Below the pieces are notes generated by a model. That model did no database searches. It saw only the letters and a list, made by a program, of their open reading frames with translations, and was not told where the DNA came from. 64,000 nt of DNA from Maritimibacter sp. GTDB lineage: Bacteria; Pseudomonadota; Alphaproteobacteria; Rhodobacterales; Rhodobacteraceae. The position numbers and the translations under genes are program-made. Positions 43,921 through 63,454 of this stretch are shown one piece after another (within the stretch, counting starts at the first letter, position 1; each line of letters opens with the position of its first letter). The stretch is taken from the NCBI GenBank assembly GCA_017792445.1, contig CP051232.1, positions 3,756,001-3,820,000 on the forward strand. The letters are read 5' to 3'.

Positions 43921-44532
43921 TCAGTTCCCGGCGCGGTCGATCTCGCGCAGGATCGCGGCGGCGCGGCGGGCGCGTTGCAGGGCGGTCAGGTGACACAGCG
44001 CGGCATAGAGCCCAAGACCCCACGGCAGCACCCAGTCCCACGGCAGCAGGCCCGCCAGCAGCAGCAGGACGCAGGTGTAGATGATCCGCTCCAGCCGCTC
44101 GAACGCGTCGGGCCACGCGGTGTTGGACACCGGCGTCTCGATGGCGGTGCGGGCCTTGGCGTAGCTGGTGATCATCGCACCCGAAAAGCCCAGCAGCACC
44201 AGCGCCCAGTAGCCGGTGACCCAGCCGATGGCGAGGGCCACGACGAGTTCCTGATAGCGGTCGACCATCGCGTCGAAATAGCCGCCCAGCTTGCTGGACA
44301 GCCCCGTCTGCCGCGCCACCGCACCGTCCAGCGCGTCGAACACGAAGGTGCAGGCCAGCGTCAGCGCGTAGATCCAGTGCGACTGGTGCCAGAGATAGGC
44401 CGCCGAGACCGCGACGAGCAGCACAAGGCCCGCGCCCGTCACCTGGTTCGGGGTGAACCCGGCGCGGGCAAGGGGGCGGGCCAACGCCTCCCACATCGGG
44501 TCGATCACGTCCTTCATCAGCCCGTCGATCAT
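43921..44532 (-). CDS. CDP-alcohol phosphatidyltransferase (copy A)
   Basis: A 203-residue membrane enzyme with about five transmembrane helices. The full family signature is present: DALDGAVARQTGLSSKLGGYFDAMVDR (pattern DxxDGxxAR...GxxxDxxxD). It moves a phospho-alcohol from a CDP-linked donor to an acceptor. Its start overlaps the stop of the FGGY kinase by four bases (ATGA), so its acceptor or donor may derive from the polyol phosphate made by that kinase. A second family member sits at 49488. Confidence 0.9.
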   Translation of the reverse strand: MIDGLMKDVIDPMWEALARPLARAGFTPNQVTGAGLVLLVAVSAAYLWHQSHWIYALTLACTFVFDALDGAVARQTGLSSKLGGYFDAMVDRYQELVVALAIGWVTGYWALVLLGFSGAMITSYAKARTAIETPVSNTAWPDAFERLERIIYTCVLLLLAGLLPWDWVLPWGLGLYAALCHLTALQRARRAAAILREIDRAGN

Positions 44533-46082
44533 GCCGCGCCCTGTCGTTTGTAGAGTTTCACCAGCGCCTTGCGGATGTGTTTCAGATCGTCATAGCGGCG
44601 CGCCATCAGGTCGCGCTGCTGCGGGTCTGGCTCGATCACCGGGGCGTCACTTTCGGCCAGCGTGGCGGCGGCGTCCCAGACCGAGGCCGACCAGCCCATC
44701 GCGGGCGCCGCCATCGCCGCCGCGCCGCGCATCCCGGCATAGGCGGTGTCGCGCACCTGCACGGGACGGTCCAGCGCCGCGGCCAGCGCGCGGACCAAAT
44801 GCGGGTTCGCCACCGCGCCGCCCACCAGCGGCAGCGGGCCGTCGGTGCGCGCGCCGCGTTCCTTCTTCACAAGGTCGTAGACCCAGCGGGTGTTCAGCGC
44901 CACGCCCTCGGTCACCGCGCGTTTCATCTCGGGCGGGCCGTGGCGCAGGTTCAGCCCGTGGAAGGCGCCGCGCAGGCGTTCCTCGTCCACCGGAACCCGC
45001 TCGCCCGCCAGCCACGGCAGGAAGTACGGGTCGTCCGGCGCCGGCGCGCCGATCTCGCGGTAGAAGGCGGCGAGCGCTGCGTCGTCGTCGGACTGGCCGA
45101 AGGTGCGGGCCAGCCACGCCATCGCGGACCCCGCGACCTCTTGCGTGGCGATCAGCAGGGGACGGTGGTCGATCGACGAGGTGATCGTGGCGTAGGCGGC
45201 GAAGGCGTTCAGCACGCGGCGGTCGAAGAAGCCCGACACCCACGACGAGGTCGAGACGCACAGGTGCAGCGCTCCGTCCGCCACCGCGCCCGAGCCGATG
45301 GCGGTCACGCTGACGTCGCCGCCGCCGCCCAGCACCGGGGTGCCGGGACGCAGGCCAAGCTGCCCCGCCGCCTGCGCGGTCAGCCCGTCGACCACCGCCG
45401 CACCGTCGACGATGCGGGGCAGGCGGTCCAGCGGGATGCCGTAATGCGCGGCAAGATCGGGCGACCAGCCCTCGCGCCCGCGCCGGGTGTCCATCAGCCA
45501 CGTCAGGTTGGCGCTGTCGGCGGTGGTCGTGACCGCGCCGGTGGCGCGCAGGATCAGCCAGTCCTTCACGTCCAGCAGATGCGCGGTGCGGGCATAGACC
45601 TCGGACTCGTTGGCGGCGACCCACAGCATCTTGCCGGGCGGGTCCATGCCGTTGTGCGAGGGCGCGCCGTTCGCAAGACGGATCGAGCGGGCGAGGAACC
45701 GCGCGCCATAGCCCGCGACCTTCGGAAAGCCGCCCGTCTTGCCCCGGATCAGCGCGGCAGAGCGCTTGTCGAGCCAGACCATCGCCGGGCGCAGCGGGTG
45801 CCCGGCCTCATCGGCGCAGACCAGCCCGCACATCTGCGCGGCGAAGACCACGGCGCCGGTGCGGGCGGGCAGGTCGGGAATTTCGGCCCCCAGCCGCGCG
45901 ATGCCGCGGGCCAGCGCCGACCACCAGTCCTCGGGCATCTGCTCGGCCCGGCTTTGCGCGGGAAGGTGCAGCGGATAGCGCTCGGTCACCGAGGCCAGCA
46001 CCTTCAGATCCGGCCCGACGGCCCCGATCTTGACGCCCGAAGTGCCGAAATCGGCGGCGAGGATCAGGTCGGGGTCGGTCAC
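44529..46082 (-). CDS. FGGY-family carbohydrate/polyol kinase
   Basis: A 517-residue sugar kinase with ILAADFGTSGVKIGAVG at the N-terminal ATP-binding loop and GGGGDVSVTAIGSGAV and LVGGAVANPHLVRALAAALDRPV near the end. Substrates in this family include xylulose, glycerol, erythritol and ribulose; none can be chosen from sequence. The start GTG 46082 is preferred because a longer frame would overlap the divergent Stealth gene. Operon with the CDP-alcohol phosphatidyltransferase. Confidence 0.9.
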   Translation of the reverse strand: MTDPDLILAADFGTSGVKIGAVGPDLKVLASVTERYPLHLPAQSRAEQMPEDWWSALARGIARLGAEIPDLPARTGAVVFAAQMCGLVCADEAGHPLRPAMVWLDKRSAALIRGKTGGFPKVAGYGARFLARSIRLANGAPSHNGMDPPGKMLWVAANESEVYARTAHLLDVKDWLILRATGAVTTTADSANLTWLMDTRRGREGWSPDLAAHYGIPLDRLPRIVDGAAVVDGLTAQAAGQLGLRPGTPVLGGGGDVSVTAIGSGAVADGALHLCVSTSSWVSGFFDRRVLNAFAAYATITSSIDHRPLLIATQEVAGSAMAWLARTFGQSDDDAALAAFYREIGAPAPDDPYFLPWLAGERVPVDEERLRGAFHGLNLRHGPPEMKRAVTEGVALNTRWVYDLVKKERGARTDGPLPLVGGAVANPHLVRALAAALDRPVQVRDTAYAGMRGAAAMAAPAMGWSASVWDAAATLAESDAPVIEPDPQQRDLMARRYDDLKHIRKALVKLYKRQGAA

Positions 46083-46188
46083 GCGGGCGGTCGTCCTGCT
46101 GGGGCTTGCCGGATTGGGGTGCCACGCAGTCGCGCGTTTGGCAACACCCGGGCTTGCAATCGCCGCCCGGCTTGCCGAAAGGAAAGAC

Positions 46189-47136
46189 ATGAAGCCGATG
46201 GACATAGTCTACACCTGGGTCGACGACAGCTTTCCGGGATACCTGGAAGAGCTGAACCGCTACGCGGACGATCCGCGCGACCTGAACCCCAACCGCACCC
46301 GCGACAATCTGGAGGTCGTGCGCTTCTCGATGCGGTCGGTGGCGCGGAACTGTCCCTGGGTGCGGCGGATCCATTTCGTCACCTGCCGCCCGCAGGTTCC
46401 GGCTTGGCTGGACAGCGCGCATCCGATGATCCGGGTCGTCCACCACGATCAGCTGATGCGGGCCGAGATCCTTCCGACCTACAATTCCTTCTGCATTGTC
46501 AGTCATTTGCACCTGCTTCCAGATGTGACGGATCAATTCGTCTACATGGAGGACGACATGCTGGCGATGGCGCCGGGCATGGTGGATGCGCTGTTCGCCG
46601 AAGACGGCCGCCCGCAGGCGCATCTTCAGCCGCTGCGCATCAAGCGGGACCTCGACCCGGCGAAGGCCAGCCCGTGGAACCTTGCTCTGGCCACCGCCGA
46701 CCGGGCGCTGGCGGCGCGGTTCGGGGGCGCCGAGGCGCGGCGGCACATGATCCACGGGCCACAGGTGATGGACGTGGCGAACAGTCGCGCAATGTGCGCC
46801 GACTTCGCGGACGAGATCGCGACGACGCGTGCGTCGCGGTTCCGGGGCGGCGACAACGTGCCGCCCGAGGTGCTGAACCAGCACTACGGGATCGAGACCG
46901 GCGCCTTCGCAGAGGCGGGTTGGAGCCTGAGCAACGATCTGCAAGGCTATGTCTCGATTGAGAATTTCGCGCCTTGGACGTGGTGGCAGCTGAAGCGGAT
47001 CAACGCGCGGAAGCCCTTGTCGATCACGCTGAACGACAGCTTCGGCGACCGGCCGAACCCGCGTGTCGTGGCAATGGTACGGGCGCAGCTGGAGCGCTGG
47101 TTCCCGGAACCCGCGCCGTGGGAGCGCGATGCGTAG
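46189..47136 (+). CDS. Stealth-family phosphotransferase
   Basis: A 315-residue protein of the Stealth family, which transfers hexose-1-phosphate (phosphodiester linkages in capsules). It opens with the CR1 block MDIVYTWVDDSFPGYLEEL, followed by the R.RDNLEVVRFSMRSVARNCPWVRRIHFVTCRPQVPAWLD segment and the CR2-type FVYMEDDMLAMAP, then HGPQVMDVANSRAM. It could add a phospho-sugar to a glycan or a lipid head group. GGAAAG precedes ATG 46189. Divergent from the kinase gene. Confidence 0.88.
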   Translation: MKPMDIVYTWVDDSFPGYLEELNRYADDPRDLNPNRTRDNLEVVRFSMRSVARNCPWVRRIHFVTCRPQVPAWLDSAHPMIRVVHHDQLMRAEILPTYNSFCIVSHLHLLPDVTDQFVYMEDDMLAMAPGMVDALFAEDGRPQAHLQPLRIKRDLDPAKASPWNLALATADRALAARFGGAEARRHMIHGPQVMDVANSRAMCADFADEIATTRASRFRGGDNVPPEVLNQHYGIETGAFAEAGWSLSNDLQGYVSIENFAPWTWWQLKRINARKPLSITLNDSFGDRPNPRVVAMVRAQLERWFPEPAPWERDA

Positions 47137-47161
47137 CCTTCGGGCCATTGCGTCCGGAGGC

Positions 47162-47209: not shown

Positions 47210-47261
47210 AAGATCAGGATTGTCCAAGGAATCCTGTGACCTCCAGCCGGGAGCGTCCGTC

Positions 47262-48365
47262 ATGGATCAATCGCCGTCTCAGGTGCCGAAAGGCGGCCGC
47301 AAGGCCGGGATCTCGCCGCAGGCGCGGCGCCACAACGAGATGCGCAAGGCCGCCATCGCCGCGCATCCCGATCTGGCGCATGTCTCGGGCGCGCAGCCCT
47401 GGACGGTGCTGGCGCTGCCGGTGCTGCTGGCGTTGCACTGGGGTCTCGCGTGGGCGGTGTCGGACGCCGCGCTGTGGGTGATCTTCCTTGCCGCCTTCAT
47501 TCCGGGGCAGTTGCTGATCCATTCGGCTGGCGGGCTGGTGCACGAGACTGCGCACAAGCTGATCTTCCGGGGCGACCGGGCGAAGCTGGGCTTCGACATG
47601 GGGCTGGAGTGGATCCTGTCGAGCTATGGCAAGCAGTTGATTTACCAGCACGAACACATCACCAGCCACCACCCCTATATTGGCGATTACGAACGCGACT
47701 ACGAGCACGAGGACATCTGCGCCTTCCAAAGCCGGATGATGCTGCGCTCGGAGAATCCGCGCCTGCAGCACCTGCTGACCGGCCTGACGCTGGTGATCCA
47801 CCTGCTGCCGCTGGGGCCGATCATCGGCGACGAGATCTTCCCGCGCCTGAACGCATGGATCACCGGGCGGCCGCAGAAGGATCCGGAACGGCATGTCGAG
47901 GCGACCAGCGCGCCCCTCTGGCAGAAGCGGCTGTTCATCGGCGTATCGCTGGCGTCGAACCTGACGCTGCTGGCGGTGTTCGGGCCATGGGCGCTGTTGT
48001 ATCACCTGTGGGCGCTGTCGCTGTTTCTGGGCAAGTTCGGGATCTGGAACCTCGGCCAGTCGCTCAGCGAGCACGAGGGCACAGACGAGACCGCGCCGAC
48101 CCGGTCGCGGTACGGTCCGATCAACTGGCTGCTGTTCAACACGGGCTATCACAACGAGCACCACACTTTCCCGAATGTCGCGTGGTCGCGGCTGCCGGAG
48201 TTGAAGCGGCAGGCGCCCGAGGTGTTCACCGAGACGGCGGACAAGACCTATTTCGGCTATTGGCTGGACCACGTGCGCGGCGATTTCACCGCCAGCCGGC
48301 GGACGCCGTTGCATGACGTGGACAACACCGCCCGCTGCGCGGGGCGGGTAGAGCCCGCGGAATAG
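47262..48365 (+). CDS. Fatty acid desaturase family protein resembling sphingolipid delta-4 desaturases
   Basis: A 367-residue membrane di-iron desaturase. The histidine boxes are HETAH (94-98), HITSHH (132-137) and HNEHH (297-301). The blocks YGPINWLLFNTGYHNEHHTFPN and the N-terminal RRHNEMRKAAIAAHPDL resemble the [22 protein letters not shown] and RREILAKYPEI segments of animal DEGS1. Four or more hydrophobic segments are present. It probably acts on a lipid-linked acyl or sphingoid chain. ATG 47262 has GGGAG upstream. Context with a sphingoid-base pathway supports the specific reading, which remains inference. Confidence 0.85.
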   Translation: MDQSPSQVPKGGRKAGISPQARRHNEMRKAAIAAHPDLAHVSGAQPWTVLALPVLLALHWGLAWAVSDAALWVIFLAAFIPGQLLIHSAGGLVHETAHKLIFRGDRAKLGFDMGLEWILSSYGKQLIYQHEHITSHHPYIGDYERDYEHEDICAFQSRMMLRSENPRLQHLLTGLTLVIHLLPLGPIIGDEIFPRLNAWITGRPQKDPERHVEATSAPLWQKRLFIGVSLASNLTLLAVFGPWALLYHLWALSLFLGKFGIWNLGQSLSEHEGTDETAPTRSRYGPINWLLFNTGYHNEHHTFPNVAWSRLPELKRQAPEVFTETADKTYFGYWLDHVRGDFTASRRTPLHDVDNTARCAGRVEPAE

Positions 48366-48382: not shown

Positions 48383-49486
48383 TTAGGCTTGCGGTGCGAG
48401 GCTGCGGTAGATCTTGAGGTAATCCGGACCGACCTGCGTGACGTCGAAGCGGGCGGCCTCGGCGGTGGCCCAGCCTTTCAGCGTGTCCGGTGCGCTTGCC
48501 AGCGCGATCACCTTGTCGGCCAGCGCGGCCGGGTCGTTCGGCGGCACCAGCAGCTCCGCGCCCGGGCCGGTCAGGACCGAGGCGTAGCCTGCGTTCGCGG
48601 CGGCCACGGGCAGGCATCCGGCGGCCATCGCTTCCAGTAGGATCAGCCCGAAACTTTCACCATAGGGCGCGGGTGCGAGCAGCATGTGGGACCGCCCGAG
48701 AAGCGCGCGGGCCGCGTCGTCCTCCGGGCGGCCGATCACCGTGACCCGGTCCGATTGCGCCGCCTGCGCCTTCGCGCGCAAGGGGCCGTCGCCCGCGATG
48801 GTGAGGGTCGCGTGGGGCAGCGCCCGACTGATGCGGGGCCACGCGGCAAGCGCGATGTCGAGACCCTTGCGCGGTTCGAGCCGCCCGAGAAACGCAAGGT
48901 CCAGCCTGCCGGGATCGCGGGGCCGCGCGGCGGCGGTCCAGTCGGACAGGTCGATGGCGGGCGGCAGGATCTGCGGGTGCAGGTCGGGCAGCGCCCGGGC
49001 CAGCATGTCCAGCGGCGCCGGCGAGGGCACGACGATGGCCTCGCAGCCCGGCAGGATGCGGGTCGCGGCCGAGCGGATGAAGCGGTCGGTCATGCCCTTG
49101 GCGTTCGGCGCGGGCAGGGTGGCGTGGACCGTCGCCAGCGTCGGCAGGCGCAGGCGCGACCACAGCTGGCTGGTCAGGAACGGCGTCCACGGCGTGTGCA
49201 TGTGGACGACCTCGGCCCCCCATGCGCGCAGGTCCTTCACGGCGGCGGCAAGAGCACGTGGCCCGGCGAAGGACAGCTCGAACTCGGTTCCGTGGGCGCC
49301 GATCAGGCGGCTGTGGCCCAGCGTGGTGATCCCTTCGTCGGTGCCCGGCGCCGCACCGGGCGGCGGTGGGCACAGGATGCGCGTCTCGTGGCCCTGCGCC
49401 GTCAGCCACCGCGACAGGTCGCGCACGTGGCGCTGCACGCCGCCGGGGCGGCGCATCTCGTAGGGGCAAAGCTGGACGATCCTCAT
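48383..49486 (-). CDS. GT4-family glycosyltransferase
   Basis: A 367-residue GT-B fold glycosyltransferase of family 4. The N-terminal MRIVQLCPYEMRRPGGVQRHVRDLSRWLTAQGHE block, LDLAFLGRLEPRKGLDIALAAWP, and the ALLGRSHMLLAPAPYGESFGLILLEAMAAGCLPVAA E-x7-E motif near 285 are diagnostic. It probably adds a sugar from a nucleotide donor to a lipid or glycan. ATG 49486 lies one base after the stop of the phosphatidyltransferase at 49488, so the two are coupled. Confidence 0.92.
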   Translation of the reverse strand: MRIVQLCPYEMRRPGGVQRHVRDLSRWLTAQGHETRILCPPPPGAAPGTDEGITTLGHSRLIGAHGTEFELSFAGPRALAAAVKDLRAWGAEVVHMHTPWTPFLTSQLWSRLRLPTLATVHATLPAPNAKGMTDRFIRSAATRILPGCEAIVVPSPAPLDMLARALPDLHPQILPPAIDLSDWTAAARPRDPGRLDLAFLGRLEPRKGLDIALAAWPRISRALPHATLTIAGDGPLRAKAQAAQSDRVTVIGRPEDDAARALLGRSHMLLAPAPYGESFGLILLEAMAAGCLPVAAANAGYASVLTGPGAELLVPPNDPAALADKVIALASAPDTLKGWATAEAARFDVTQVGPDYLKIYRSLAPQA

Positions 49487-49487
49487 T

Positions 49488-50180
49488 TCATTTCCGCAGG
49501 TCGCGGGCCAGCGGAACAAGCCCCTCGGCCACGTCCAGCAGGCTGTAGACCATCAGCGCCCAGACCGCCCAGCCAAGGTAGTCGCCCGAGAAGGCGAGGA
49601 ACGGGATCAGTCCCGAGATCCCCGCGATGAAGGCGGGCAGCCAGTCGGCGGGCGTCAAAGGTTCGGGCACGCCGTCCTCGGGCCCTTGCAACCGGTCGCG
49701 GATCACCCGCGCCAGCAGCCGCGCCCAGCCCGCCATCGCGGCCAGCGTGGCCCAGCCGTCCCCGCCCAGCACCCGGGCGGCAAGAAGCCCGATGGCAAGG
49801 TACAGCAGGCCCCACTGGGTCATGTCGACAAGAAAGTCGAGGTCGCCGCCGACCTTCGACGTCCGCCCCGTCACCCGCGCCAGCGTTCCGTCGGCGCAGT
49901 CGAGCACCTGAAACAGCGCGCCCGCCAGTGCGACGGCCCACGGCGCATGGGCCAGCGGCAGGCCCCACGCCAGAAGCGGCATCGCCAGCGCCGTCGCCAG
50001 CGCAAGGAAGGACACCGCGACGGGCGACCAGCCGAGGCGCGCGAACACCCACACGAAGGGCAGCGAGGGCAGGCGATAGAGCAGGGCGATCGACCACGCC
50101 GTTCGCAACTCTTCCCGGAACCACGGTGCGCGGAGGTCCGCCGCAACCTGTCCGAAGGATGGCTTTTCCTGTGCTGTCAC
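49488..50180 (-). CDS. CDP-alcohol phosphatidyltransferase (copy B)
   Basis: A 230-residue membrane enzyme. The signature is LDCADGTLARVTGRTSKVGGDLDFLVDM, fitting DxxDGxxAR...GxxxDxxxD. Hydrophobic segments surround it. The start GTG 50180 is seven bases after AAGGCGGGG; ATG 50216 would add 12 residues. It is divergent from a cytidylyltransferase gene of the phosphocholine/aminoethylphosphonate type and would be the natural enzyme to use CMP-aminoethylphosphonate or CDP-inositol. Followed by a GT4 gene. Confidence 0.9.
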   Translation of the reverse strand: MTAQEKPSFGQVAADLRAPWFREELRTAWSIALLYRLPSLPFVWVFARLGWSPVAVSFLALATALAMPLLAWGLPLAHAPWAVALAGALFQVLDCADGTLARVTGRTSKVGGDLDFLVDMTQWGLLYLAIGLLAARVLGGDGWATLAAMAGWARLLARVIRDRLQGPEDGVPEPLTPADWLPAFIAGISGLIPFLAFSGDYLGWAVWALMVYSLLDVAEGLVPLARDLRK

Positions 50181-50292
50181 GGTCGTGCCCCGCCTTGATG
50201 CTTCCCGGCCCCTCACTTATCGTCCGCGCAACTTGCGCGGTCCGGACCGCGTCCGGGACCATGCGCGGTTTCTGCCGCAGATCGGGGAAAGA

Positions 50293-51051
50293 ATGAAGGA
50301 CTTAACGGCGATCATCGTCGCGGCGGGGCTTGGTGTGCGCATGGGGCCGCGCGGCAAGCTGATGCCGAAGGGGCTGATCAAGGTCGGCGGACGCCCGATG
50401 GTGGCGCAGTCGCTGGATACGCTGCGCGCCGCCGGGATCGGGCGTGTGCGGATCGTGACCGGCCACCTGAACGAACAATACGAAGAGGCGTTCGGCGGCG
50501 CGCCGGGTGTCGAGCTGATCCACAATCCGCTGTATTCCACCACCGGCAGCCTGCGCACGCTGGCCACCGCGCTGGATGGGATCGAAGGGCCGGTGGTCAT
50601 TCTCGAGTCGGACCTGATCTATGCTCCCGAGGGGCTGGAGGCGGCGCTTACGGGCGGCAACCTGCTAGTGACCTCGGGGCCTACGGGCGCGGGGGACGAG
50701 GTCTATGTCTGGACCGATGCAGAGGGCGCGCTGATCGAGATATCGAAGGACGCAGCCGCACGGCCCGAGCCGCATTTCGGCGAACTGGTCGGAATCACCG
50801 CGCTGGATGCGGCGAGCGTCGCGCTGATGCGGGTCGTGGCCGAAGAGGTGCTGACCGAGACTCCCGCCGAGCACTACGAGGCCGGGCTGGTGGCGCTTGG
50901 CCGCAAGGTGCCGGTGCCCTGCGTCCGGATCGACGATCTGCCGTGGGCCGAGGTGGATGACGAGACGATGCTCGCCCACGCCGAGCAGGAGGTCTACCCA
51001 AGGGTCGCCGCCGCGCGCGAGGCGCGGATGGCCGGGGCGCGGACCTCGTGA
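50293..51051 (+). CDS. Nucleotidyltransferase, phosphocholine/aminoethylphosphonate cytidylyltransferase type
   Basis: A 252-residue nucleotidyltransferase. The NTP-binding loop AAGLGVRMG (10-18) is followed by Lys26 in MPKGLIKVGG. ESDLIYAPEGLEA (105-) and TSGPTGAGDEVYVW (127-140) resemble the blocks seen in LicC-type and PntC-type enzymes that make CDP-choline or CMP-aminoethylphosphonate; general sugar nucleotidyltransferases lack them. GGGGAAAGA precedes ATG 50293. It overlaps the next gene by four bases. I favour CMP-aminoethylphosphonate given the phosphonate genes 10 kb away, but CDP-inositol is possible. Confidence 0.85.
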   Translation: MKDLTAIIVAAGLGVRMGPRGKLMPKGLIKVGGRPMVAQSLDTLRAAGIGRVRIVTGHLNEQYEEAFGGAPGVELIHNPLYSTTGSLRTLATALDGIEGPVVILESDLIYAPEGLEAALTGGNLLVTSGPTGAGDEVYVWTDAEGALIEISKDAAARPEPHFGELVGITALDAASVALMRVVAEEVLTETPAEHYEAGLVALGRKVPVPCVRIDDLPWAEVDDETMLAHAEQEVYPRVAAAREARMAGARTS

Positions 51052-52103
51052 TCCGGGCCGTGCAGGCAGCGACGCGCCGCCTGCACGGGACCCTGACCCT
51101 GTTCGTTGCGCTGGCGCTGGCCCCGGTCCTGCTGGGCTGGGCGCTTGTCACGGCGATCGGTGGCGTTGAGAAGCGCAGCCTGCCGCGCGACGATCCGGCG
51201 ACGACGCTGATCCTCGTCACGCTGGACGGCGTGCGGCCGCAGGAACTGCTGCACGGCGCCGATCCCTCGCTTGCGCCCGACCGCGCCGGTGAGCCGGTGA
51301 TGCCCTTCCTGACCCGTTCGCTTGCGCCGTTGGGCGGCTTCATCGCAGGCGACGGGCGGTTCGGAACCGGGACGCCCTTCGCCACCAGCATGCCGAGCTA
51401 TCATGCGATGTTCACCGGCCGGATGACGACCTGTCTCACCAACGAATGCCGCGAGCCGCGCGGCGAGGGGCTTCTGTCCCGGCTGGTCGATCTTGCGCCG
51501 GGGTCGGTGGCGGTTTTCGCCACGTGGACCCGGCTGTGCTTCGGGCTGCCGGCCGAGCGGCTGGCGAATATATCGGTCTGTGGCCGGGATCAGGCCTTCG
51601 CCTATCTGCGGCGCCACGGTGCGGCGGCGGATGTCGAGGGCAACGCCGACGCGATGATCTTCCGCGCGGCTCTGTCCCGGCTGCGGCTGGACCCGCCGAG
51701 TTTTCTGTACATCGCGCTGGATGAAAGCGACGGGGCGGGCCACTCGGGCGTGTATCCCGCCTATCTTGGCGTGCTGGCGCGCTATGACGGCTATCTCAGG
51801 GCGCTGTGGTCCGAGATGCAGGCGATGCGGGCGCGCGGGCTGAAGCCGGTGCTGGTGGTCACGACGGACCATGGGCGCGGCGACGGGGCAGAGTGGACGG
51901 GCCACGGCTTTACCATCCCCGCCTCGCGCGAGGGCTGGCTGTTGGCCGTCGGGCACGGGATCGCGGCGCAGGGGCGTGCGGCGGGAACCCGGCACCGGTC
52001 GCTGTTCGACGTGCGGCCCACGGTGGAACACCTGCTGGGGCTGGTGCCGCGGCGAAGCTTGTGGGGCGGTGTGATGACCGAGTTGCTGGCCTACCGCGGC
52101 TAA
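51048..52103 (+). CDS. Alkaline phosphatase superfamily membrane-anchored protein
   Basis: A 351-residue protein with one N-terminal transmembrane helix (about 15-38). TLILVTLDGVRPQELL near 55 holds a metal-binding aspartate; the candidate nucleophile lies in TPFATSMPSYHAMFTG, and YIALDESDGAGH and VVTTDHGRGDGAEWTGHG supply further metal ligands. The catalytic part should face the periplasm. It may remove a phosphate from a lipid intermediate or transfer a phospho-group. GTG 51048 overlaps the preceding stop. Its stop overlaps the convergent LptG-like stop by four bases. Confidence 0.85.
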   Translation: MIRAVQAATRRLHGTLTLFVALALAPVLLGWALVTAIGGVEKRSLPRDDPATTLILVTLDGVRPQELLHGADPSLAPDRAGEPVMPFLTRSLAPLGGFIAGDGRFGTGTPFATSMPSYHAMFTGRMTTCLTNECREPRGEGLLSRLVDLAPGSVAVFATWTRLCFGLPAERLANISVCGRDQAFAYLRRHGAAADVEGNADAMIFRAALSRLRLDPPSFLYIALDESDGAGHSGVYPAYLGVLARYDGYLRALWSEMQAMRARGLKPVLVVTTDHGRGDGAEWTGHGFTIPASREGWLLAVGHGIAAQGRAAGTRHRSLFDVRPTVEHLLGLVPRRSLWGGVMTELLAYRG

Positions 52104-55470: not shown

Positions 55471-56249
55471 CAGCGGCGGTGCTTCCGCACGACGCCCGCT
55501 TGCCACGCGCGCAGCGCGGGTGCGGCCAGCGAGTGCAGCCACAACAGCGCGGTCATCTGCGCGCCCGGCGCGACGGTGAACCGGCCCTTGTCGGCGCGCT
55601 TCAGGATCGCCGCGGCGACGTTCTCGGGCGTCCAAAGCCCGCCGCCGGCGGTGATCGCCTTGGTGACCGCGGGCTTGGTGCGGGCCTCGGCGGCCAGTTG
55701 CGGCGTGTCGGTGTCGGGCGGGTAGGCCAGCGTCACGCTGATCCGGGGCGCGAGTTCGACCCGCAGCACCTCTGCCAGCCCGCGCAGGGCGAATTTCGAC
55801 GGCGCATAGGCAGAGTATCCGTAGATCCCGAAGAACGCCGCGCCGGACGACACGAAGACCAGCCGCCCGTCGCCCATCGCATCGGCACAGGCCTTGGCGA
55901 AATAAAGCGCGCCCATGTAGTTCGTCTGCATCTGCGCCTCGTGGGCGGCGATGTCCTGCGACATGAACTCGCCGGGCTCGGCGATGCCCGCGTTTGCGAT
56001 GGCCCAGCCCGGCGCGCCGAAGTCGGCGATGGCCTGCGTCACGGCGGCCTCGCAAGTAGCGCGGTCGGCGACGTCGCAGGGATAGGCGCGGGCGTTCGGC
56101 ATGGACGCCACCGCGTCCGTCAGCCGGTCGGCGTTGCGGGCGAACAAGGCCACGGGGTGACCGCGCGCGGACAGCTGGCGGGCCAGCGCAAGGCCGATCC
56201 CGCTGCTGCCCCCGGTGATGAAGGCCGGCCGGGTGGCCGTGCCCGTCAC
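55470..56249 (-). CDS. SDR resembling 3-ketodihydrosphingosine reductase (KDSR)
   Basis: A 259-residue short-chain dehydrogenase. ITGGSSGIG (11-19) is the NADPH-binding loop and Y148/K152 are in the YxxxK site. AYPPDTDTP (175-183) with RTKP a few residues later matches the PPDTDTPG...RTKP signature of eukaryotic KDSR (FVT1/TSC10), which reduces 3-ketosphinganine to sphinganine. GTG 56249 overlaps the MIPS stop by four bases. It likely reduces the product of the alpha-oxoamine synthase in the same locus. Confidence 0.9.
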   Translation of the reverse strand: MTGTATRPAFITGGSSGIGLALARQLSARGHPVALFARNADRLTDAVASMPNARAYPCDVADRATCEAAVTQAIADFGAPGWAIANAGIAEPGEFMSQDIAAHEAQMQTNYMGALYFAKACADAMGDGRLVFVSSGAAFFGIYGYSAYAPSKFALRGLAEVLRVELAPRISVTLAYPPDTDTPQLAAEARTKPAVTKAITAGGGLWTPENVAAAILKRADKGRFTVAPGAQMTALLWLHSLAAPALRAWQAGVVRKHRR

Positions 56250-57358
56250 TGGCCGGCGTCCCCCGCGAAAGCCAGCAGCATGTCGTGCGCCTCGGGGTCG
56301 TCGACCTGCTCGGGCGGGTGCTTGAACAGGAAGGCGCTTGCCTCGGGCACCGCACCCTTCAGCCCGCGTTCCAGCGCGATGCGGGCGCAGCGGACGGCGG
56401 TGATTGCCATCGCGGCGGCGTTCGGGCTGTCTTCGACTTCCAGACGGACCTCCATCGAGGTCTTGGCGCCGCCCAGCAGCTGCCCTTCGATCCGGACGTA
56501 AGCGACCTTGCGGTCATGCAGCCACGGGACATAGTCCGATGGGCCGATGCGGATGTTGCCATCGGCCAGCCGGGCGTCCATCGCGGCCTGCACGGCCTCG
56601 GTCTTGGACTCGCGCTTCAGCGCCAGCCGGTCCATGTCCATCATGTTCATGAAGTCGGTGTTGCCGCCGACGTTCAACTGGTAGGTGCGGTCGATCTTCA
56701 CACCGCGCATGTCGGCCAGATGCGCCAGCGTGCGGTGCACGATGGTCGCACCGAACTGTGCCTTGAAGTCGTCGCCAAGGATCGGCAGGCCGGCGCTTTC
56801 GAATTTCTTCGCCCAGGTGGGGTTCGAGGCCAGGAACACCGGGATGCCGTTCACCACCGCGCAGCCGGCTTCCAGCGCGCACTGGGCGTAGAACTCGACC
56901 GCTTGCGTGCTGCCGACGGGCAGGAAGATCACCAGAACCTCGGCCTGCGCGTCCTTCAGAGCGGCGACGATCTGGTCCTTCGACAGCGGCGGTTCGTCCG
57001 AGGGCACAAAGCTCAGCTCGGGCGGCTGGTTGCGCATGAAGGCCGACACGCCGTCAAGGTCGGGCCCGCGATGCACGCGGGCCGGCTGGTCGTCAAGCTT
57101 GTCCCAGAAGATCTCGGTACAGTTCGGGTCGGCCAGCACGGCCTCGCCGATGGGGCGGTTCACCTTGCGGCGGTCCACGTCGAAGCCCGCGACGATCTCG
57201 ATATCCTCGGGGCGGTAACCGCCAAGCTCGGGAAAGGAGACGCCGACGGCATCCGCGCCTTTGACGCGGCAATAGGAAACGGCCTGGACGAGCGAAGAGG
57301 CGCAATTGCCGACACCGGCAATCGCCGTGCGGATACTGCCGCGCTGGGAGGTGCTCAT
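56246..57358 (-). CDS. Inositol-3-phosphate synthase
   Basis: A 370-residue NAD-dependent myo-inositol-1-phosphate synthase of the actinobacterial and archaeal type. TAIAGVGNCASSLVQAVSYC is the NAD-binding loop, then VNGIPVFLASNP, GDDFKAQFGATIVHRTLA, and YQLNVGGNTDFMNM, and the C-terminal KTSMEVRLEVEDSPNAAAMAITAVR. It converts glucose-6-phosphate to inositol-3-phosphate, so it needs a lipid or glycan use nearby. Its stop overlaps the SDR gene; cdsA-like and lptFG-like genes follow. Confidence 0.95.
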   Translation of the reverse strand: MSTSQRGSIRTAIAGVGNCASSLVQAVSYCRVKGADAVGVSFPELGGYRPEDIEIVAGFDVDRRKVNRPIGEAVLADPNCTEIFWDKLDDQPARVHRGPDLDGVSAFMRNQPPELSFVPSDEPPLSKDQIVAALKDAQAEVLVIFLPVGSTQAVEFYAQCALEAGCAVVNGIPVFLASNPTWAKKFESAGLPILGDDFKAQFGATIVHRTLAHLADMRGVKIDRTYQLNVGGNTDFMNMMDMDRLALKRESKTEAVQAAMDARLADGNIRIGPSDYVPWLHDRKVAYVRIEGQLLGGAKTSMEVRLEVEDSPNAAAMAITAVRCARIALERGLKGAVPEASAFLFKHPPEQVDDPEAHDMLLAFAGDAGQ

Positions 57359-57426: not shown

Positions 57427-58038
57427 TTATTGCTGAAGTTCGCCACCCGAGACCGCGTAATACTCGGAAATCGCACCGGCTCCTGCCGGAAGCAGCCCGT
57501 GGACCGACAGTTGCGTCACGCGCGGCAACAGCCCGCTTTCGTCGACCTCGGCATAGGCATAGACGACCCGCGCCGTCTCGCCGCCGATCCGGCCCAGCAC
57601 CTGCGCCTTGAACGGGCCGGTCTGAAGCAGCACCATCGACAGTTGCGGCAGCGGCTTCAACGCCACGTTGAACTGCCCGGCCGTGGCGCGGCGGCTGATG
57701 TTCACGCCGAAGGCCAACAGGCGCTCGATGGGTTTCAGCGGCTTTCGTTCGCCGTCGTCGGCATAGCGGCGCCAGTAGATGCTGACGGCATCGGGATAGG
57801 TCAGGGTGCCGGCGGCGTCATAGCGAGCGGCGAAAACGATGGTGTTCTCGTTGGTCGAACGCTGCAGAAAGAACATCTGGTTGGGGTCTTCCGGCACGGG
57901 CCAGTCCGGCTGAACCAGCGGCAGGCGCGGCTGGCGGTCGACGCGGATCGTCTGCAACCGCGCCGCCGAGGCCGCCCCGGGAAGGGAGGCCGCCGCGAAG
58001 GCCGCACCCGTGGTGCCGATGAAATGACGCCGGTCCAT
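57427..58038 (-). CDS. DUF4833-like exported protein
   Basis: A 203-residue protein with a twin-arginine signal (MDRRHFIGTTGAAFAAASLPGAASA). The mature part, with FFLQRSTNENTIVFAARYDAAGTLTYPDAVSIYWRRYADDGERKPLKPIERLLAFGV, matches my recollection of the DUF4833 family. Beta-rich, no catalytic motif seen; perhaps a periplasmic lipid-handling protein. It lies 68 bases upstream of the MIPS gene on the same strand and 138 bases after the alpha-oxoamine synthase, so it belongs to the same unit. Confidence 0.78.
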   Translation of the reverse strand: MDRRHFIGTTGAAFAAASLPGAASAARLQTIRVDRQPRLPLVQPDWPVPEDPNQMFFLQRSTNENTIVFAARYDAAGTLTYPDAVSIYWRRYADDGERKPLKPIERLLAFGVNISRRATAGQFNVALKPLPQLSMVLLQTGPFKAQVLGRIGGETARVVYAYAEVDESGLLPRVTQLSVHGLLPAGAGAISEYYAVSGGELQQ

Positions 58039-58176: not shown

Positions 58177-59409
58177 TCAGGAACTTGCAATCTTTACCGG
58201 CAAGTCGCCATGAACCGCGGCGGCGGTCACATCGACCGCGCGCAGGATATCCTCGTCGCGGTGGGCGGCGGAGAAGAAGAAGCGGATGCGCGGCTGGTCC
58301 TTCGGCACACCGACCTGAACGATCGGCGGCGCGTAGATGCCGTGCTCGATCAGAACCTGACTGATCATCATCGTCTGCTCGGGCGTCTCGAAATGCAGCG
58401 GCACCACGGCCTCGCCGATGGCGTTGCCGGGCTCCAGCCCCGCCGCGCGCGCGGTGTCGCGGAACAGGCGGGACTTCTGTTTCAGCCGTTCCACCCGCTC
58501 GGGCTCGCGCCGCAGGATGTTCACCGCCGCGTTGGCCGAGGCGGTGGTCGCGGGCGACAGGCCCACGGAATAGACGAAACCGGGCAGGGTGAACCGCAGC
58601 CATGCGATCACTTCGGCATTGGCGCAGATGAAGCCGCCCGACGAGACGAAGCTTTTCGACAGCGTGCCCACCGACAGTTCGACCTCGGACGGGTCGATGC
58701 CGAAATGCTCGCAGATGCCTTTGCCGTTCCGGCCAAGCACGCCGTAGGAATGCGCCTCGTCCACCAGCAGCCAAGCGTCGTGGCGGTTCTTCATCTCGAC
58801 CAGCCGGGGCAGGTCGGGAATGTCACCATCCATCGAATACAGCCCTTCGACCACCACCAGCACGTGCCGGTATTCGCCGCGCGCCGCCTTAAGCTGCGCT
58901 TCGAGGTCGTCGAAGTTGTTGTGCTCGAAAGTCCGGCACTCGAACCGGCCGGACTTGGCGCCCACCACGATGGAGTTGTGCGCAAGGCTGTCGATCAGCA
59001 CAAGATCGCGCGGCCCCAGCAGGTGATTGATCAGCGACAGGTTGGTCAGGTAGCCCGAGATCAGCGACAGCACGTCGCCGACGCCGAGGAACTCGGCAAG
59101 GTTGCGTTCCAGCGCCCGGTGCGCGGTGCGTTCACCGCCGACAAGGCGCGACGCTCCGGCGCCCGCGCCGTAATCCTGCATCGCCTGGGTCGAGGCCGCG
59201 ATGACCTCCGGATGACGCGCAAGGCCGAGATAGTCGTAATGCGCGAGGCTGACGTAGCCCTCGGGCTTCGAGGAATACATCTGCTCAAGCCGGTCCACGG
59301 GCACGAAATAGGGGTGACCCTTTTCGATGATGGACTTCCCTGCTAGCCGAAACCGTCGCTCTGCCACTGCAGAAAAGCTCGGGCGCTCCGGCTTGCCGTC
59401 TGAAACCAT
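58177..59409 (-). CDS. Alpha-oxoamine synthase, serine palmitoyltransferase-like
   Basis: A 410-residue PLP enzyme of the alpha-oxoamine synthase family (serine palmitoyltransferase, KBL, ALAS, BioF). Lys252 in VGTLSKSF is the Schiff base residue; LVDEAHSYG (215-223) and VVEGLYSMDGD are typical. The C-terminus with PPIVQVGVPKDQPRIRFFFSAAH carries substrate loop residues. It condenses an acyl thioester with an amino acid, most likely serine given the KDSR-like SDR and desaturase in the locus, to give a 3-keto sphingoid base. AAGGAGG stands five bases before ATG 59409. Confidence 0.9.
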   Translation of the reverse strand: MVSDGKPERPSFSAVAERRFRLAGKSIIEKGHPYFVPVDRLEQMYSSKPEGYVSLAHYDYLGLARHPEVIAASTQAMQDYGAGAGASRLVGGERTAHRALERNLAEFLGVGDVLSLISGYLTNLSLINHLLGPRDLVLIDSLAHNSIVVGAKSGRFECRTFEHNNFDDLEAQLKAARGEYRHVLVVVEGLYSMDGDIPDLPRLVEMKNRHDAWLLVDEAHSYGVLGRNGKGICEHFGIDPSEVELSVGTLSKSFVSSGGFICANAEVIAWLRFTLPGFVYSVGLSPATTASANAAVNILRREPERVERLKQKSRLFRDTARAAGLEPGNAIGEAVVPLHFETPEQTMMISQVLIEHGIYAPPIVQVGVPKDQPRIRFFFSAAHRDEDILRAVDVTAAAVHGDLPVKIASS

Positions 59410-59521: not shown

Positions 59522-59560
59522 AATCCCCGCGCCTTGCCGGGTTGTAACGCCCTGAAACAC

Positions 59561-60664
59561 TTAGTGACGCGCCTGCATCGCCGCCGTCACGCGTGCCGCT
59601 GCGGCAAGGAAGGCCGTGATGTCTGCGGGAGAGACGTCGCCGATTACTCCGACGCGAAAGGTTGCGTGGTCTCGCATCTTTCCCGCGTAAATCGCGAAGC
59701 CTTCGTCCTTCAGCCTGTCATAGAACTGTTGGAAATCGAACCACGCATCCTCGGGTTCCCCAAAGGAAACTATGATCGGAGCCTGCGTCGCGGGGTCCAG
59801 CACCGGGCGAAAGCCCAGATCCGCCATCCCCTTGATTAACAGCGTACAATTTTCGGCATAGCGCGCGCGGCGCGCTTCGGGCCCGCCTTCCGCCTGCAAC
59901 TCGTCCAGCGCCTGCGCCAAAGCCGCGATGACATGCGTCGGCGGTGTGAAGCGCCACTGACCGTCAGCGGAAAACTGCCGATCCTGGGCCGCAAGATCCA
60001 GTACAAGCGACGGCGAGTTGTGATCGTCACGCGACAACAGCGGTTTGCGGACGATGACGAAGCCCGCGCCGGGGACGCCCTGAAGGCATTTGTTGGACGA
60101 TGCGGCCAGTGCCGCGAATCTCAGCGCGCCCGCGTCGCAGGGCAGCGCGCCGAAGGACGACATCGCGTCGACCAGCACTTCGGTTCCCGCCGCGCGGCAG
60201 ATCTCCGAAATCTCGGCGATCGGGTTCAGCACGCCCGAAGTCGTTTCGCAATGCACGACGGCGGCGAAACGGAACGGCCCGCCGCTGGCCAGCGCCTCGG
60301 CCACGGCGGCGGCGGGCACCGGCGCGCGGTCGGGCAGGTCCAGCACGCTGTGGCGCAGGCCCATGCGGGCGCAGATCTCGGCGATCCGCTTGCCGTAGGC
60401 GCCGTTCGACACCACGAGGATGCCATCGTCGGGCGCGACCAGCGAGGCGATCATCGCCTCGACCGCGAAGGTGCCCGAGCCCTGCAACGGAACGGCGGTA
60501 TAGTCGTCGCCGGCGTTTGCGATCCGCAGCAGACCCTGTCGCACCCCGGCGGTCAGCGCCTCGAACTCCGGGTCGCGGGACCCCCAGTCGCGCAGCATCG
60601 CGCGTTTCACGCTGTCGGTGGTGGTCAGCGGGCCGGGGGTCAGCAAAAGCGGCGTGTCGGTCAT
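59561..60664 (-). CDS. phnW: 2-Aminoethylphosphonate-pyruvate transaminase
   Basis: A 367-residue class V aminotransferase. LLLTPGPLTTTDSVKRAMLRDWGSRDPEF matches PhnW, and Lys192 in SSNKCLQGVPG is the PLP lysine. In synthesis it aminates phosphonoacetaldehyde to 2-aminoethylphosphonate. With ppd and pepM in one operon the synthetic direction is expected. ATG 60664 overlaps the ppd stop by four bases. It ends 151 bases before the alpha-oxoamine synthase gene. Confidence 0.95.
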   Translation of the reverse strand: MTDTPLLLTPGPLTTTDSVKRAMLRDWGSRDPEFEALTAGVRQGLLRIANAGDDYTAVPLQGSGTFAVEAMIASLVAPDDGILVVSNGAYGKRIAEICARMGLRHSVLDLPDRAPVPAAAVAEALASGGPFRFAAVVHCETTSGVLNPIAEISEICRAAGTEVLVDAMSSFGALPCDAGALRFAALAASSNKCLQGVPGAGFVIVRKPLLSRDDHNSPSLVLDLAAQDRQFSADGQWRFTPPTHVIAALAQALDELQAEGGPEARRARYAENCTLLIKGMADLGFRPVLDPATQAPIIVSFGEPEDAWFDFQQFYDRLKDEGFAIYAGKMRDHATFRVGVIGDVSPADITAFLAAAARVTAAMQARH

Positions 60665-61794
60665 GCAAGATACTCGCGGAAGCGGCGGGCGACGGTTTCC
60701 GGCGTCACCTTGGGCCGGGGCAGGTTCTCGATCCGGCTGGGCGAGACCTTCAGATGCAGAAGGCGCGGGCCGGGGGTGGCAAGAGCAGCGCGCAGCAGCG
60801 TGCCTGCATCGTCAAGCGTGTCGGCGCGGCCCGCGAAGGCATAGCCGCAGGCGCTGGCGACGGCGGCGAAGTCGACGCCGGGCGACACGGTGCGCTGGCC
60901 GCCGGTGCTTTCGTGGATGCCGTTGTCGAGGATGACGTGGGTCAGGTTCGCCGGTTGCTCGGCCCCGATGGTGGCAAGGTTGCCCAGCTTCATCAGCGCC
61001 GCGCCGTCGCCATCCAGCACGACGATCTCGCGGTCCGTGTTCAGCGCCGCGCCAAGGCCGATGGCGCTTGCGCCGCCCATGGACCCGACGGTGTAAAGAT
61101 GCGCGGGCGCGTCTTCGAGCGCATACAATTCGCGCCCGCAATAGCCGGTGGTGGCGATCAGCCCCGTGCCATCGGGCACCGAGGCACGGATGAGGTCCAG
61201 CACCTCGACCCGGCGCGGCGGTTCGGCGGCGGCGAAGGCGCCCTCGGGCGTGCAGGCGGGGCGCGCGGCGACCGGTGTCTCGTCCAGCGGCGACTTGGCC
61301 ACGCCGCCCTTTGGCAGCACGAAACCGAAGGGCAGCGACGTCTCCGCCATCCGCGCCATCGCGGTGTCCAGCGCGGGGCCGATGGCGGCGGCGCTGGCCG
61401 GGAAGGGCGCGTTGGGCACCTGCATCAGATCCAAAAGCCCTTGCGTGATCTGGCCCATCAGCTCGTGCTGCGGCTCGTCGCCAATGCCGGGCTGACCGCG
61501 CCACGTGGTCAACACCAGCGTCGGGATGCGGAACGGAAAGTTCAGCGAGGTCAGCGGGTTGACCGTATTCCCAAGTCCCGAGTTCTGGCACATCACGGCC
61601 GTCTCGCGCCCGGCAAGCCATGCGCCGGCGGCGATGGCCACGGCCTCGCCCTCGCTGGCCGCGCCGACATAGGCGGTGTCGGGGCTGGAGATGACCGCGT
61701 TCATCAGCGGCGTCAGGAAGGAACAGGGAACACCCGTCCAGAACGAGATGCCGCGCTCGGCGGCGGCTGCGATGAAGTCAGGAGCGTCGATCAT
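60661..61794 (-). CDS. ppd: Phosphonopyruvate decarboxylase
   Basis: A 377-residue thiamine diphosphate enzyme. The conserved Glu is in ASEGE near residue 48, and the TPP/magnesium motif GDGAALMKLGNLATIGAEQPANLTHVILDN runs from 262 to 290. HESTGGQ follows, typical of the family. It decarboxylates phosphonopyruvate to phosphonoacetaldehyde, which makes the unfavourable PEP mutase step run forward. The start is ATG 61794. It overlaps phnW and follows pepM by 49 bases. Confidence 0.95.
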   Translation of the reverse strand: MIDAPDFIAAAAERGISFWTGVPCSFLTPLMNAVISSPDTAYVGAASEGEAVAIAAGAWLAGRETAVMCQNSGLGNTVNPLTSLNFPFRIPTLVLTTWRGQPGIGDEPQHELMGQITQGLLDLMQVPNAPFPASAAAIGPALDTAMARMAETSLPFGFVLPKGGVAKSPLDETPVAARPACTPEGAFAAAEPPRRVEVLDLIRASVPDGTGLIATTGYCGRELYALEDAPAHLYTVGSMGGASAIGLGAALNTDREIVVLDGDGAALMKLGNLATIGAEQPANLTHVILDNGIHESTGGQRTVSPGVDFAAVASACGYAFAGRADTLDDAGTLLRAALATPGPRLLHLKVSPSRIENLPRPKVTPETVARRFREYLA

Positions 61795-61843
61795 CGGGGA
61801 AGGCGAATTTTCTTTTGCATTCCGGGGGCCTGCAAGGCGGGCA

Positions 61844-63454
61844 TCACATCGTGTTCCGGGCTTCGGAGAGGTCGGCAAGGTCGTTGACGTTGGCCCAGTT
61901 GCCGGACACGTAAATCGCCCGCACCGTTTCGCCGCGCGCCATCAGGCGGGTCAGCACGGCGGCCATGTCGGCCTGCGCCAGCACGCCTTCGGCCTCCATC
62001 CGGTCGAGTTCCGCGCGCAGCTTGGCGGTGCCGTCCGCCGACATGCCCAGCAGGCCGACCCACTGGCCGTCCGCCGCGTCCACCGCGCCGATCTGGCGGA
62101 CCTTCGGCGCCGCACCGGTCGCGAACCCGCCCTCGTAGGGCGCGGAACAGGCCACCAGGTCGCGGTCCTTGTCGGTGCCGGTCAGGTTGGGATCGACCAG
62201 AACCACGAAATCCTCGGTCCGGTCGCCCAAAAGGCTGACGAAGAACGGCTGGAACACGATATCGCCGTAGCCAACGATGGCGGCCCCGGTCAGGGCATCG
62301 CGGGCGCAGGCGAGCGAGGCCGCCTCGCCGGTGGTGGCGTAGTCCGGGTTCAGCGCCTTCGAGATGTTCTCGCCCTCGACCGCGTCGTGGCAGTAGCCGG
62401 CGACCACGGTGACGTTCTTCACGTGCTCGCGCCGAAAGGCATCCAACTGGCGGGCAAGGATGGACTGGCCGCGCACGTTGACCATGCATTTGGGCCGGTC
62501 CTCGGTCAGCGCGCCAAGGTCGCTGCCGCGTGTGGCGGCGAGGATCACGGCGGACCGTTCGGGCTGCGCGGCAAGATAGACCTTCTCGGCCTCTTCCAGT
62601 TCGCTGGCATTGGCCAGCGCGAAGACGTCCTCGAGGGGCGCGACCTCGCTTTCGATTTCCAGCAGCGTCTGCTGTTCGAAGATCTTGCGGCTGACCTCGC
62701 GCATCGACTGGATCGCGGCGCGCAGGTTGTGGTTGGCCCAGATCACCGTCGACACGCCCGCGTCGCGGAACTGGTCGGTGGGCGTGCGGTAATACTTGGT
62801 CGGGATGACGATCACCGGGCAGCGCGAATGGTCCCACAGCCGGTTGAATTCAAGGATCTCGTCGGCGTCGCGCTTGCGCGAATGGATCACCAGAGCGTCG
62901 GCGCCCGCGTCGGCATAGGCGTCGGCGCGCTTCAGCGCCTCGTCCATGCCCTGACCCGCGATCAGCGCCTCAATCCGGGCCACGACCGAGAAATCCGGGT
63001 GTTCCTGCGTGTCCTTGCCCGCTTTGATCTTGCCGCAGAACTCTTCGATGTCGGCAAGGTCGTCGCCTTCGCTGAGGAAGCTGTTCGTCTTCGGGAAGAT
63101 CTTGTCCTCGATGCAGACGCCCGCGATGCCGCGCTGGCACAGCTTCTTCACCAGACGGCGGAAGTTGTTGAAGTTGCCATAGCCGGTGTCGCCGTCCACG
63201 AGGATCGGCACGGTGGTCGCGTCGGACATGTATTCCAGCACGTCCAGCACCTGCGTCCACGACAGTTCGTTGTTGTCGCGCACCCCCAGCGTGGCCGAGA
63301 TCGACAGGCCCGAGGCCCAGACGCCGCCGAAGCCGGCCTCTTCGACGATCTTGGCCGACAGGCCGGAATGCGCCTCCATCAGGAAGGACAGGTCCTTCGA
63401 CTGAAGAAGTTCGCGAAGCTGGGTGAACTTGGAACGATCATGGCGTTGCAGCAC
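61844..63454 (-). CDS. pepM: Phosphoenolpyruvate mutase fused to a nucleotidyltransferase domain
   Basis: A 536-residue two-domain protein. Residues 1-300 are PEP mutase, with the motif [10 protein letters not shown] (116-125, pattern EDKxxxxxNS) that separates mutases from isocitrate lyase-like relatives, and GDTGYGN near 88-94. It makes phosphonopyruvate. Residues 301-536 resemble nucleotidyltransferases: [23 protein letters not shown]; the usual GxGxR loop is changed to ATRGSDLG, so catalysis is uncertain. The GTG start at 63454 has AAGG upstream. First gene of pepM-ppd-phnW. Confidence 0.94.

Follow-up and report, generated by a model that had tools for sequence, protein, structure and literature searches.

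A conserved locus in Maritimibacter sp. that joins predicted sphingoid-type, inositol and phosphonate lipid genes to Lpt-like export genes

Several described bacterial systems hold parts of the gene set reported here. According to the portions of the reports cited, Caulobacter crescentus CC_1168-CC_1152 combines an enzyme of the alpha-oxoamine synthase (AOS) family with a CDP-alcohol transferase, nucleotidyltransferases and a second permease pair, LptF2/LptG2 (PMC11324152); Bacteroides thetaiotaomicron BT_1522-1526 carries myo-inositol-phosphate synthase (MIPS) and a CDP-alcohol transferase of the PIP-synthase type (PMC9246714); Pnt clusters contain a PEP mutase fused to a MobA-like cytidylyltransferase, phosphonopyruvate decarboxylase (Ppd), a 2-aminoethylphosphonate (AEP) transaminase and a separate PntC-like nucleotidyltransferase (PMC6697681); and Bdellovibrio (Bacteriovorax) stolpii makes a chemically known sphingoid lipid with a phosphonate head group (PMC6148460). 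In a window of 64,000 nucleotides from Maritimibacter sp. (C1:3756001-3820000 of a 4.675 Mb genome, one contig), components of all these kinds lie together in a conserved block of about 18 genes, which is a real multi-step lipid locus. Each part is of a known kind, and the combination is new relative to the literature searched: no description of sphingoid, inositol and phosphonate lipid chemistries combined in one bacterium was found there, subscription journals being mostly outside its coverage.

The locus also departs from each of these systems as the cited portions describe them. The Caulobacter set comprises serine palmitoyltransferase (SPT) with AcpR, AasR, CerS and a ceramide kinase, and its product is ceramide poly-phosphoglycerate (PMC11324152), whereas in the window's family the loci contain MIPS, a CdsA-like gene, an FGGY-family kinase and DUF4833, some of them also a desaturase and phosphonate genes. 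Compared with BT_1522-1526, no AUR1-like inositol-phosphoceramide synthase (BT_1522) is among the families found, while AOS, a short-chain reductase (SDR), the CdsA-like gene and export and phosphonate genes are included; a PgpA-family phosphatase like BT_1525 occurs in relatives outside the window's family (PMC9246714). Unlike in Pnt clusters, the phosphonate module is joined to an AOS/inositol lipid locus, with no LicD-like transferase among the families found (PMC6697681). In the B. stolpii lipid the phosphonate is attached to C1 of the base, and the cited portion of that report describes no inositol genes or locus (PMC6148460).

Searches of the window proteins against Pfam and NCBIfam recovered every gene listed in an earlier note on this DNA and confirmed its statement that 63454-52100 is one minus-strand series. 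They added DUF4833, the FGGY-family kinase, a weak match to the alkaline-phosphatase superfamily and a MobA-like nucleotidyltransferase domain fused to PEP mutase, all absent from that note. The genes are as follows (positions in the window).

61844-63454, minus strand: PEP mutase with a MobA-like (PntC-type) cytidylyltransferase domain (TIGR02320, 398 bits, cut-off 320)
60661-61878, minus strand: Ppd (TIGR03297, 406 bits, cut-off 313)
59561-60664, minus strand: AEP transaminase, PhnW (TIGR02326, TIGR03301 and PRK13479 above cut-off)
58177-59409, minus strand: AOS, class I/II aminotransferase, above no NCBIfam cut-off (likely start ATG 59409; the open reading frame opens at 59520)
57427-58038, minus strand: DUF4833 (PF16117), small beta protein with a signal-peptide-like N-terminus
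56246-57358, minus strand: MIPS (PF01658)
55470-56249, minus strand: SDR, KDSR-like (best PDB match TSC10 8jat)
54553-55470, minus strand: CdsA-like CTP-dependent cytidylyltransferase, CTP_transf_1 (PF01148, 115 bits; start picked by analogy with G204)
53266-54471, minus strand: LptF-like permease, second paralogue (Pfam)
52100-53269, minus strand: LptG-like permease, second paralogue (Pfam)
51048-52103, plus strand: alkaline-phosphatase-superfamily protein (PF01663, below cut-off)
50185-51051, plus strand: PntC-like cytidylyltransferase, NTPt (PDB 6pd1 match)
49488-50216, minus strand: CDP-alcohol phosphotransferase 1, CDPOH1 (PF01066)
48383-49519, minus strand: GT4 glycosyltransferase (Pfam)
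47220-48365, plus strand: membrane desaturase, FADS, with three His boxes (GYHNEHHxFPN)
46030-47136, plus strand: Stealth-type sugar-phosphate transferase (PF11380, 99.5 bits; CR1, CR3 and CR4 also matched, each under its cut-off)
44529-46205, minus strand: FGGY-family kinase (start uncertain; GTG 46082 is likewise in frame)
43921-44532, minus strand: PIP-synthase-like CDP-alcohol phosphatidyltransferase, CDPOH2 (below NCBIfam cut-offs)

The nearest named relative of the AOS belongs to Maritimibacter sp. NAT7 (95%), and 11 of the 394 genomes of the window's family, its own included, carry the AOS (E 1e-120). A contig scan with this protein gave 14 loci, 12 of them in Rhodobacteraceae-type records with an AOS identity of at least 57%. 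For the comparison, 23 loci were used: 17 in the window's family (duplicates merged) and six in family f21, which belongs to another order because it is classed as 'same class' relative to the window; L019 and L020, with AOS relatives at 32-33% and none of the other locus genes, were excluded. Three loci were too short for a test of gene order (L010 and L018 end at or within AOS, L016 after SDR). The order AOS-DUF4833-MIPS-SDR-CdsA-LptF-LptG was kept in 19 of the remaining 20, across two orders, and chance assembly was rejected on this basis. The exception, G152, has AOS and phnW about 175 kb from the remaining genes on the same contig. In 16 of the 19 order-keeping loci LptG is followed by NTPt and CDPOH1, which are absent from that position in L017/G282, G327 and G210; the distal half of the G282 locus was not found across its whole 154 kb contig and may lie elsewhere. 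The earlier note had regarded dispersal of the homologues as contrary evidence; they proved syntenic, except for the split G152 and for G282. Restriction of the locus to the window's family was also rejected, since the six f21 genomes, of another order, hold the full version including pepM, with a PgpA gene between CdsA and LptF.

Given these data, we consider it fairly probable that the products of the locus synthesize and export a single family of outer-membrane lipids, of inositol-phosphate, glycosylated and sphingoid type, carrying AEP in some lineages. Gene content, co-inheritance and co-occurrence are what the comparison establishes; every substrate, product and position in the following order is predicted from them. 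AOS would condense an acyl thioester and an amino acid, serine being the likeliest; SDR would reduce the product to a sphingoid-type amino alcohol, which FADS could optionally desaturate. MIPS would supply inositol phosphate, the CdsA-like enzyme a CDP-activated lipid, and CDPOH2 would join both into an inositol-phosphate lipid, from which a PgpA-type phosphatase (encoded at the locus in relatives from outside the window's family and presumably at another genomic site inside that family) would strip the extra phosphate. GT4 and Stealth could then extend the head group. In pepM-bearing lineages, PepM, Ppd and PhnW would form AEP, PntC-type cytidylyltransferases would convert it to CMP-AEP, and a CDP-alcohol transferase, for which CDPOH1 is the candidate, would attach AEP to the lipid or to its glycan. 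Transport to the outer membrane would fall to the second LptF/LptG pair, joined in several relatives by an ABC exporter, and DUF4833 probably assists in the periplasm.

Copy numbers of the export genes followed the locus. LptF/LptG copies above cut-off numbered four in all 12 locus-bearing genomes (G000 included) and two in all four genomes without it; a fifth match, in G327, was weak and below cut-off. For Caulobacter, LptF2/LptG2 has been proposed to transport sphingolipids, a proposal that the cited portion of the report does not pursue further (PMC11324152). In several relatives, genes for an ABC exporter and a Frag1/DRAM/Sfk1 protein lie close to CDPOH2; a search limited to the window and the adjoining 39 kb found neither of them. 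Between exporter and Frag1, G643 (L050:8303-9394) encodes a protein of 363 amino acids without a Pfam match, which is conserved in three of the six f21 loci.

The PEP mutase matched PDB 1m1b with 392 bits, and its assignment is supported both by the EDKxxxxxNS motif, readable in the alignment, and by a score above the TIGR02320 cut-off. Its fused NTP_transf_3 domain occupies amino acids 302-411 and is more remote from solved enzymes than NTPt (LicC, 27 bits); fusions to a MobA-like nucleotidyltransferase are reported for about a third of PEP mutases in the cited portion of PMC6697681. The genes pepM-ppd-phnW lie immediately upstream of AOS in nine of the 23 loci (the window, L008, L017/G282 and all six f21 loci), L017 coming from Salinihabitans flavidus DSM 27842, and G152 retains only phnW there. 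Nine-taxon trees of the three phosphonate proteins and of AOS, MIPS, SDR, DUF4833 and CdsA had identical shape, as expected of joint inheritance; their weakest forks (69 and 56) fall inside one close trio. In whole-genome searches, the full-length fusion was present in two of the 11 AOS genomes, one being the window's own, and a 38% match to the PEPM domain in two more. No Pho box was matched at up to three mismatches in the gap 63441-63600 upstream of pepM. G152 carries a different phosphonate set (L053:8944-15686), with a CTP_transf_like-PEPM fusion, Ppd and an iron alcohol dehydrogenase, and a sulfotransferase gene two genes on; the position of the fusion beside Ppd and the dehydrogenase suggests hydroxyethylphosphonate as the product.

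A role in AEP activation is predicted for NTPt from its sequence, which is nearest to that of the CMP-AEP enzyme PntC: it matched PntC-AEPT (PDB 6pd1) with 141 bits, the next match being LicC with 45 bits, and shares the stretches TGS and ESDLIY with 6pd1. The CDP-alcohol motif of CDPOH1 was present in 19 of 19 rows (16 distinct loci). NTPt and CDPOH1 could instead form CDP-inositol and an inositol phosphodiester, either as a compatible solute or by the alternative Bacteroides phosphatidylinositol route, and not an AEP conjugate. There is weak NCBIfam similarity to Thermococcales IPCT/DIPPS, and a CDP-alcohol transferase, MIPS and an NTP transferase form a three-gene set on a Sphingomonas parapaucimobilis plasmid (L138:9144-11811) that resembles the alternative Bacteroides inositol cluster, a route proposed in the cited portion of PMC9246714. 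However, the 141 bits of NTPt to PntC compare with 24-25 bits to IPCT (4mnd, 2xme), and the window and Sphingomonas NTPt align over 60 residues only (37%). We regard this alternative as very improbable, and its compatible-solute form (di-inositol phosphate) as unlikely given the PntC match.

For both AOS and SDR, a sphingoid enzyme was the best solved relative. The AOS matched SPT (PDB 3a2b) with 212 bits, ahead of KBL (200) and BioF (194), and the SDR matched TSC10 (8jat) with 85 bits, the next match having 75. The AOS stretches HNS, DEAHS, SKS and IRF, which we take to hold the pyridoxal-phosphate lysine, the stacking His and the carboxylate Arg, were present in all 24 type A rows compared. 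The FADS signature GYHNEHH, found in eight of nine rows (six of seven distinct loci), presumably resembles that of DEGS1; no relative of FADS was found in the PDB and no Lipid_DES domain among its Pfam hits.

In the inositol branch, MIPS was present in one copy, and DUF4833 in exactly one, in each of the 11 AOS-bearing genomes of the family, the window's own included. CDPOH2 scored 113 bits against NF040950 (cut-off 180) and 77 bits against NF045883 (cut-off 170); its CDP-alcohol motif and SYxKAR, the latter shared with the solved PIP synthase 6h53, were present in the window; of the rows compared, 18 of 23 had them. The presence of a CdsA-like gene in the locus suggests CDP activation of a special lipid. 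The PgpA family, to which the cited portion of PMC9246714 gives a PIP phosphatase role in Bacteroides (BT_1525), had a member in all but one of the 25 type A-E loci from outside the window's family, the exception being the split G1028 locus, searched on one contig; at the five DUF4833 places left over from the 30 compared (see below) it had no match. None was found in loci of the window's family, and one 31% match lies about 23 kb beyond the window's locus. DUF4833, predicted to be exported from its signal-peptide-like N-terminus, gave an AlphaFold2 model of mean pLDDT 80.5, nearly all beta, with no PDB match at E 0.001 and top TM-scores near 0.2; its name was not found in the literature searched. 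The DUF4833 gene of L021 (11304-13452) is split into two parts, with roughly 1.6 kb of inserted DNA between them.

DUF4833 is rare, with 3 of 398 genomes of the phylum (the window's own included) and 29 of 297 in the order of G643 carrying it. All 30 places in these 29 genomes were compared, six of them being the f21 loci. All twelve loci of genus g603 have DUF4833 close to an AOS that shares 45-47% identity with the SPT-clade AOS of Roseomonas, accompanied by a CerS-like (ceramide synthase-like) gene (12/12), PgpA (12/12) and MIPS (11/12); the five of these AOS that were placed in the tree all fell inside the SPT clade. G892 and G989 have AOS, MIPS, SDR, CdsA, CDPOH2 and FGGY at the DUF4833 place, and G1028 the same set over two contigs. 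DUF4833-MIPS-SDR-CdsA-CDPOH2-FGGY occurs without a local AOS in G830, G891, G955 and at one place in G801, and all four genomes have an SPT/ACP/LptF/LptG locus elsewhere, with a CerS-like gene in three of the four SPT stretches (G830, G891 and G955; G801 is the fourth). DUF4833 is found with AOS and a CerS-like gene in G775 and G952, beside a CerS-like gene with AOS elsewhere in G845, and 14 kb from AOS in G811; the second DUF4833 place of G801 had none of the other core genes. The inositol and DUF4833 genes thus travel with sphingoid synthesis, although two AOS clades are involved.

A number of observations weigh against an exported sphingoid inositol lipid. The leads of SPT and TSC10 over other family members are small (212 vs 200 and 85 vs 75 bits), and the AOS falls under every NCBIfam SPT cut-off. 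In a tree that carries long-branch warnings, the type A AOS clusters (100/99) with those of Acidisoma, Shinella and S. meliloti, and the SPT clade stands apart (99/95). The type A rows have HNSI where 11 SPT-clade rows have HASI or HSSI, a difference that could reflect another amino acid or acyl donor. In four loci with SPT elsewhere the SDR still lies beside MIPS-CdsA; the keto-reductase may therefore be a different enzyme. The CDPOH2 pattern was unmatched in G064 and four g603 rows, and the strict CdsA-type pattern matched just 7 of 29 rows (the window and six others). We know of no role for FGGY and DUF4833. The phosphonate genes are optional (9/23 loci), no dedicated AEP transferase is present, and NTPt and CDPOH1 occur in pepM-less loci too, where they could act on AEP taken up from outside or on a different phosphate ester. 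Finally, a CerS-like query matched nothing in 12 of 12 genomes, among which there was no positive-control genome.

That query came from a Roseomonas plasmid; its CerS identity is inferred, and its record reads dATP pyrophosphohydrolase. With local tblastn, a different tool, the same query found relatives in the 12 g603 loci, in G775, G952 and G845, and in the SPT loci of G830, G891 and G955, all outside the 12 genomes searched. The Roseomonas CerS-like, ACP and DAGK proteins had no tblastn match in the loci retrieved from the window's family. Either an unrelated enzyme would then N-acylate the base, or the lipid is not N-acylated. A GNAT protein (PF13480) about 11 kb beyond the locus was rejected as the ceramide synthase, since PF13480 was present in every one of the 24 genomes searched, whether or not they carry the locus.

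The position of the AOS gives weight to another explanation, in which AOS and SDR make the lipid anchor of a surface polysaccharide or phosphoglycan and not a membrane sphingolipid, with GT4, Stealth and AEP decorating the glycan and inositol serving as a linker. The AOS of Acidisoma (52% identical to that of the window), Shinella and S. meliloti adjoin SDR and capsule genes; a type I polyketide synthase lies next to the Shinella AOS and a very large SDR-annotated gene next to that of S. meliloti, so that two of the three contexts have a large polyketide synthase or SDR-containing multidomain gene. The rhizobial AOS/SDR pair, which we take to be the rkp-1 locus, shares the AOS clade, and a lipid anchor for surface polysaccharide has reportedly been proposed for RkpG/RkpH; capsule genes accompany it there, Lpt-like export and inositol genes here. 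The missing CerS match and the Stealth gene fit such an anchor as well. However, no capsule-export family was among the Pfam hits of the locus genes, whose export genes are LptF/LptG, and relatives repeatedly have DUF4833, MIPS and PgpA next to SPT-clade and CerS-like genes. We judge the anchor explanation a serious but unlikely one.

A rather less likely possibility is that independent pathways are packed together: phosphatidylinositol on diacylglycerol (PI-DAG) from MIPS, CdsA and CDPOH2, AEP destined for a different envelope glycan, and an AOS whose product serves elsewhere. The optional pepM, the absence of NTPt-CDPOH1 from some loci, the four loci with MIPS-SDR-CdsA-CDPOH2 and no local AOS, and the separate phnW-AOS of G152 are all compatible with it. 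They are countered by the order kept in 19 of 20 loci and the like shape of the phosphonate and core trees; moreover, the genomes without a local AOS have SPT elsewhere, and the CdsA-like gene beside SDR would argue for a special lipid.

The earlier note had proposed an exported phosphono- and/or inositol-headed sphingolipid or similar lipid. What stood of this proposal is one coherent synthesis-and-export locus with conserved synteny, phosphonate genes that share the tree shape of the core, and inositol genes that track SPT and CerS-like genes in relatives. The sphingolipid part was weakened by an AOS outside the SPT clade and by the lack of a CerS homologue in the 12 genomes, and the phosphonate part by its presence in only nine of 23 loci. 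If the lipid family proposed here is correct, three lipid chemistries are joined in one bacterium, DUF4833 gains a pathway, Lpt-like sphingolipid export gains a second system, and the locus points either to an N-acyltransferase still to be discovered or to a sphingoid lipid that is not acylated. A bacterial route would also be of interest for marine animals, which are known to contain aminoethylphosphonate ceramides.

A bolder form of the proposal, which we hold to be doubtful, is a bacterial counterpart of trypanosome glycoinositolphospholipids: an AEP-decorated sphingoid inositol-phosphate glycolipid made through a CDP-activated sphingoid intermediate and carried over a dedicated Lpt-like bridge to the outer leaflet, with DUF4833 as marker and periplasmic helper. 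According to the cited portion of PMC3471836, trypanosomatid glycosylphosphatidylinositol anchors and glycoinositolphospholipids share the ingredients, namely ceramide or glycerolipid, inositol phosphate, glycan, and ethanolamine-phosphate or aminoethylphosphonate; these lipids are eukaryotic, and the analogy is one of ingredients alone.

The alkaline-phosphatase-superfamily gene between LptG2 and NTPt (51048-52103) had no homologue in the other fetched loci, the closest one, L008, included. Adjoining the locus, 39750-43833 (minus strand) encodes a RACo/AcsV-like corrinoid reactivation protein and a family-5 solute-binding protein.

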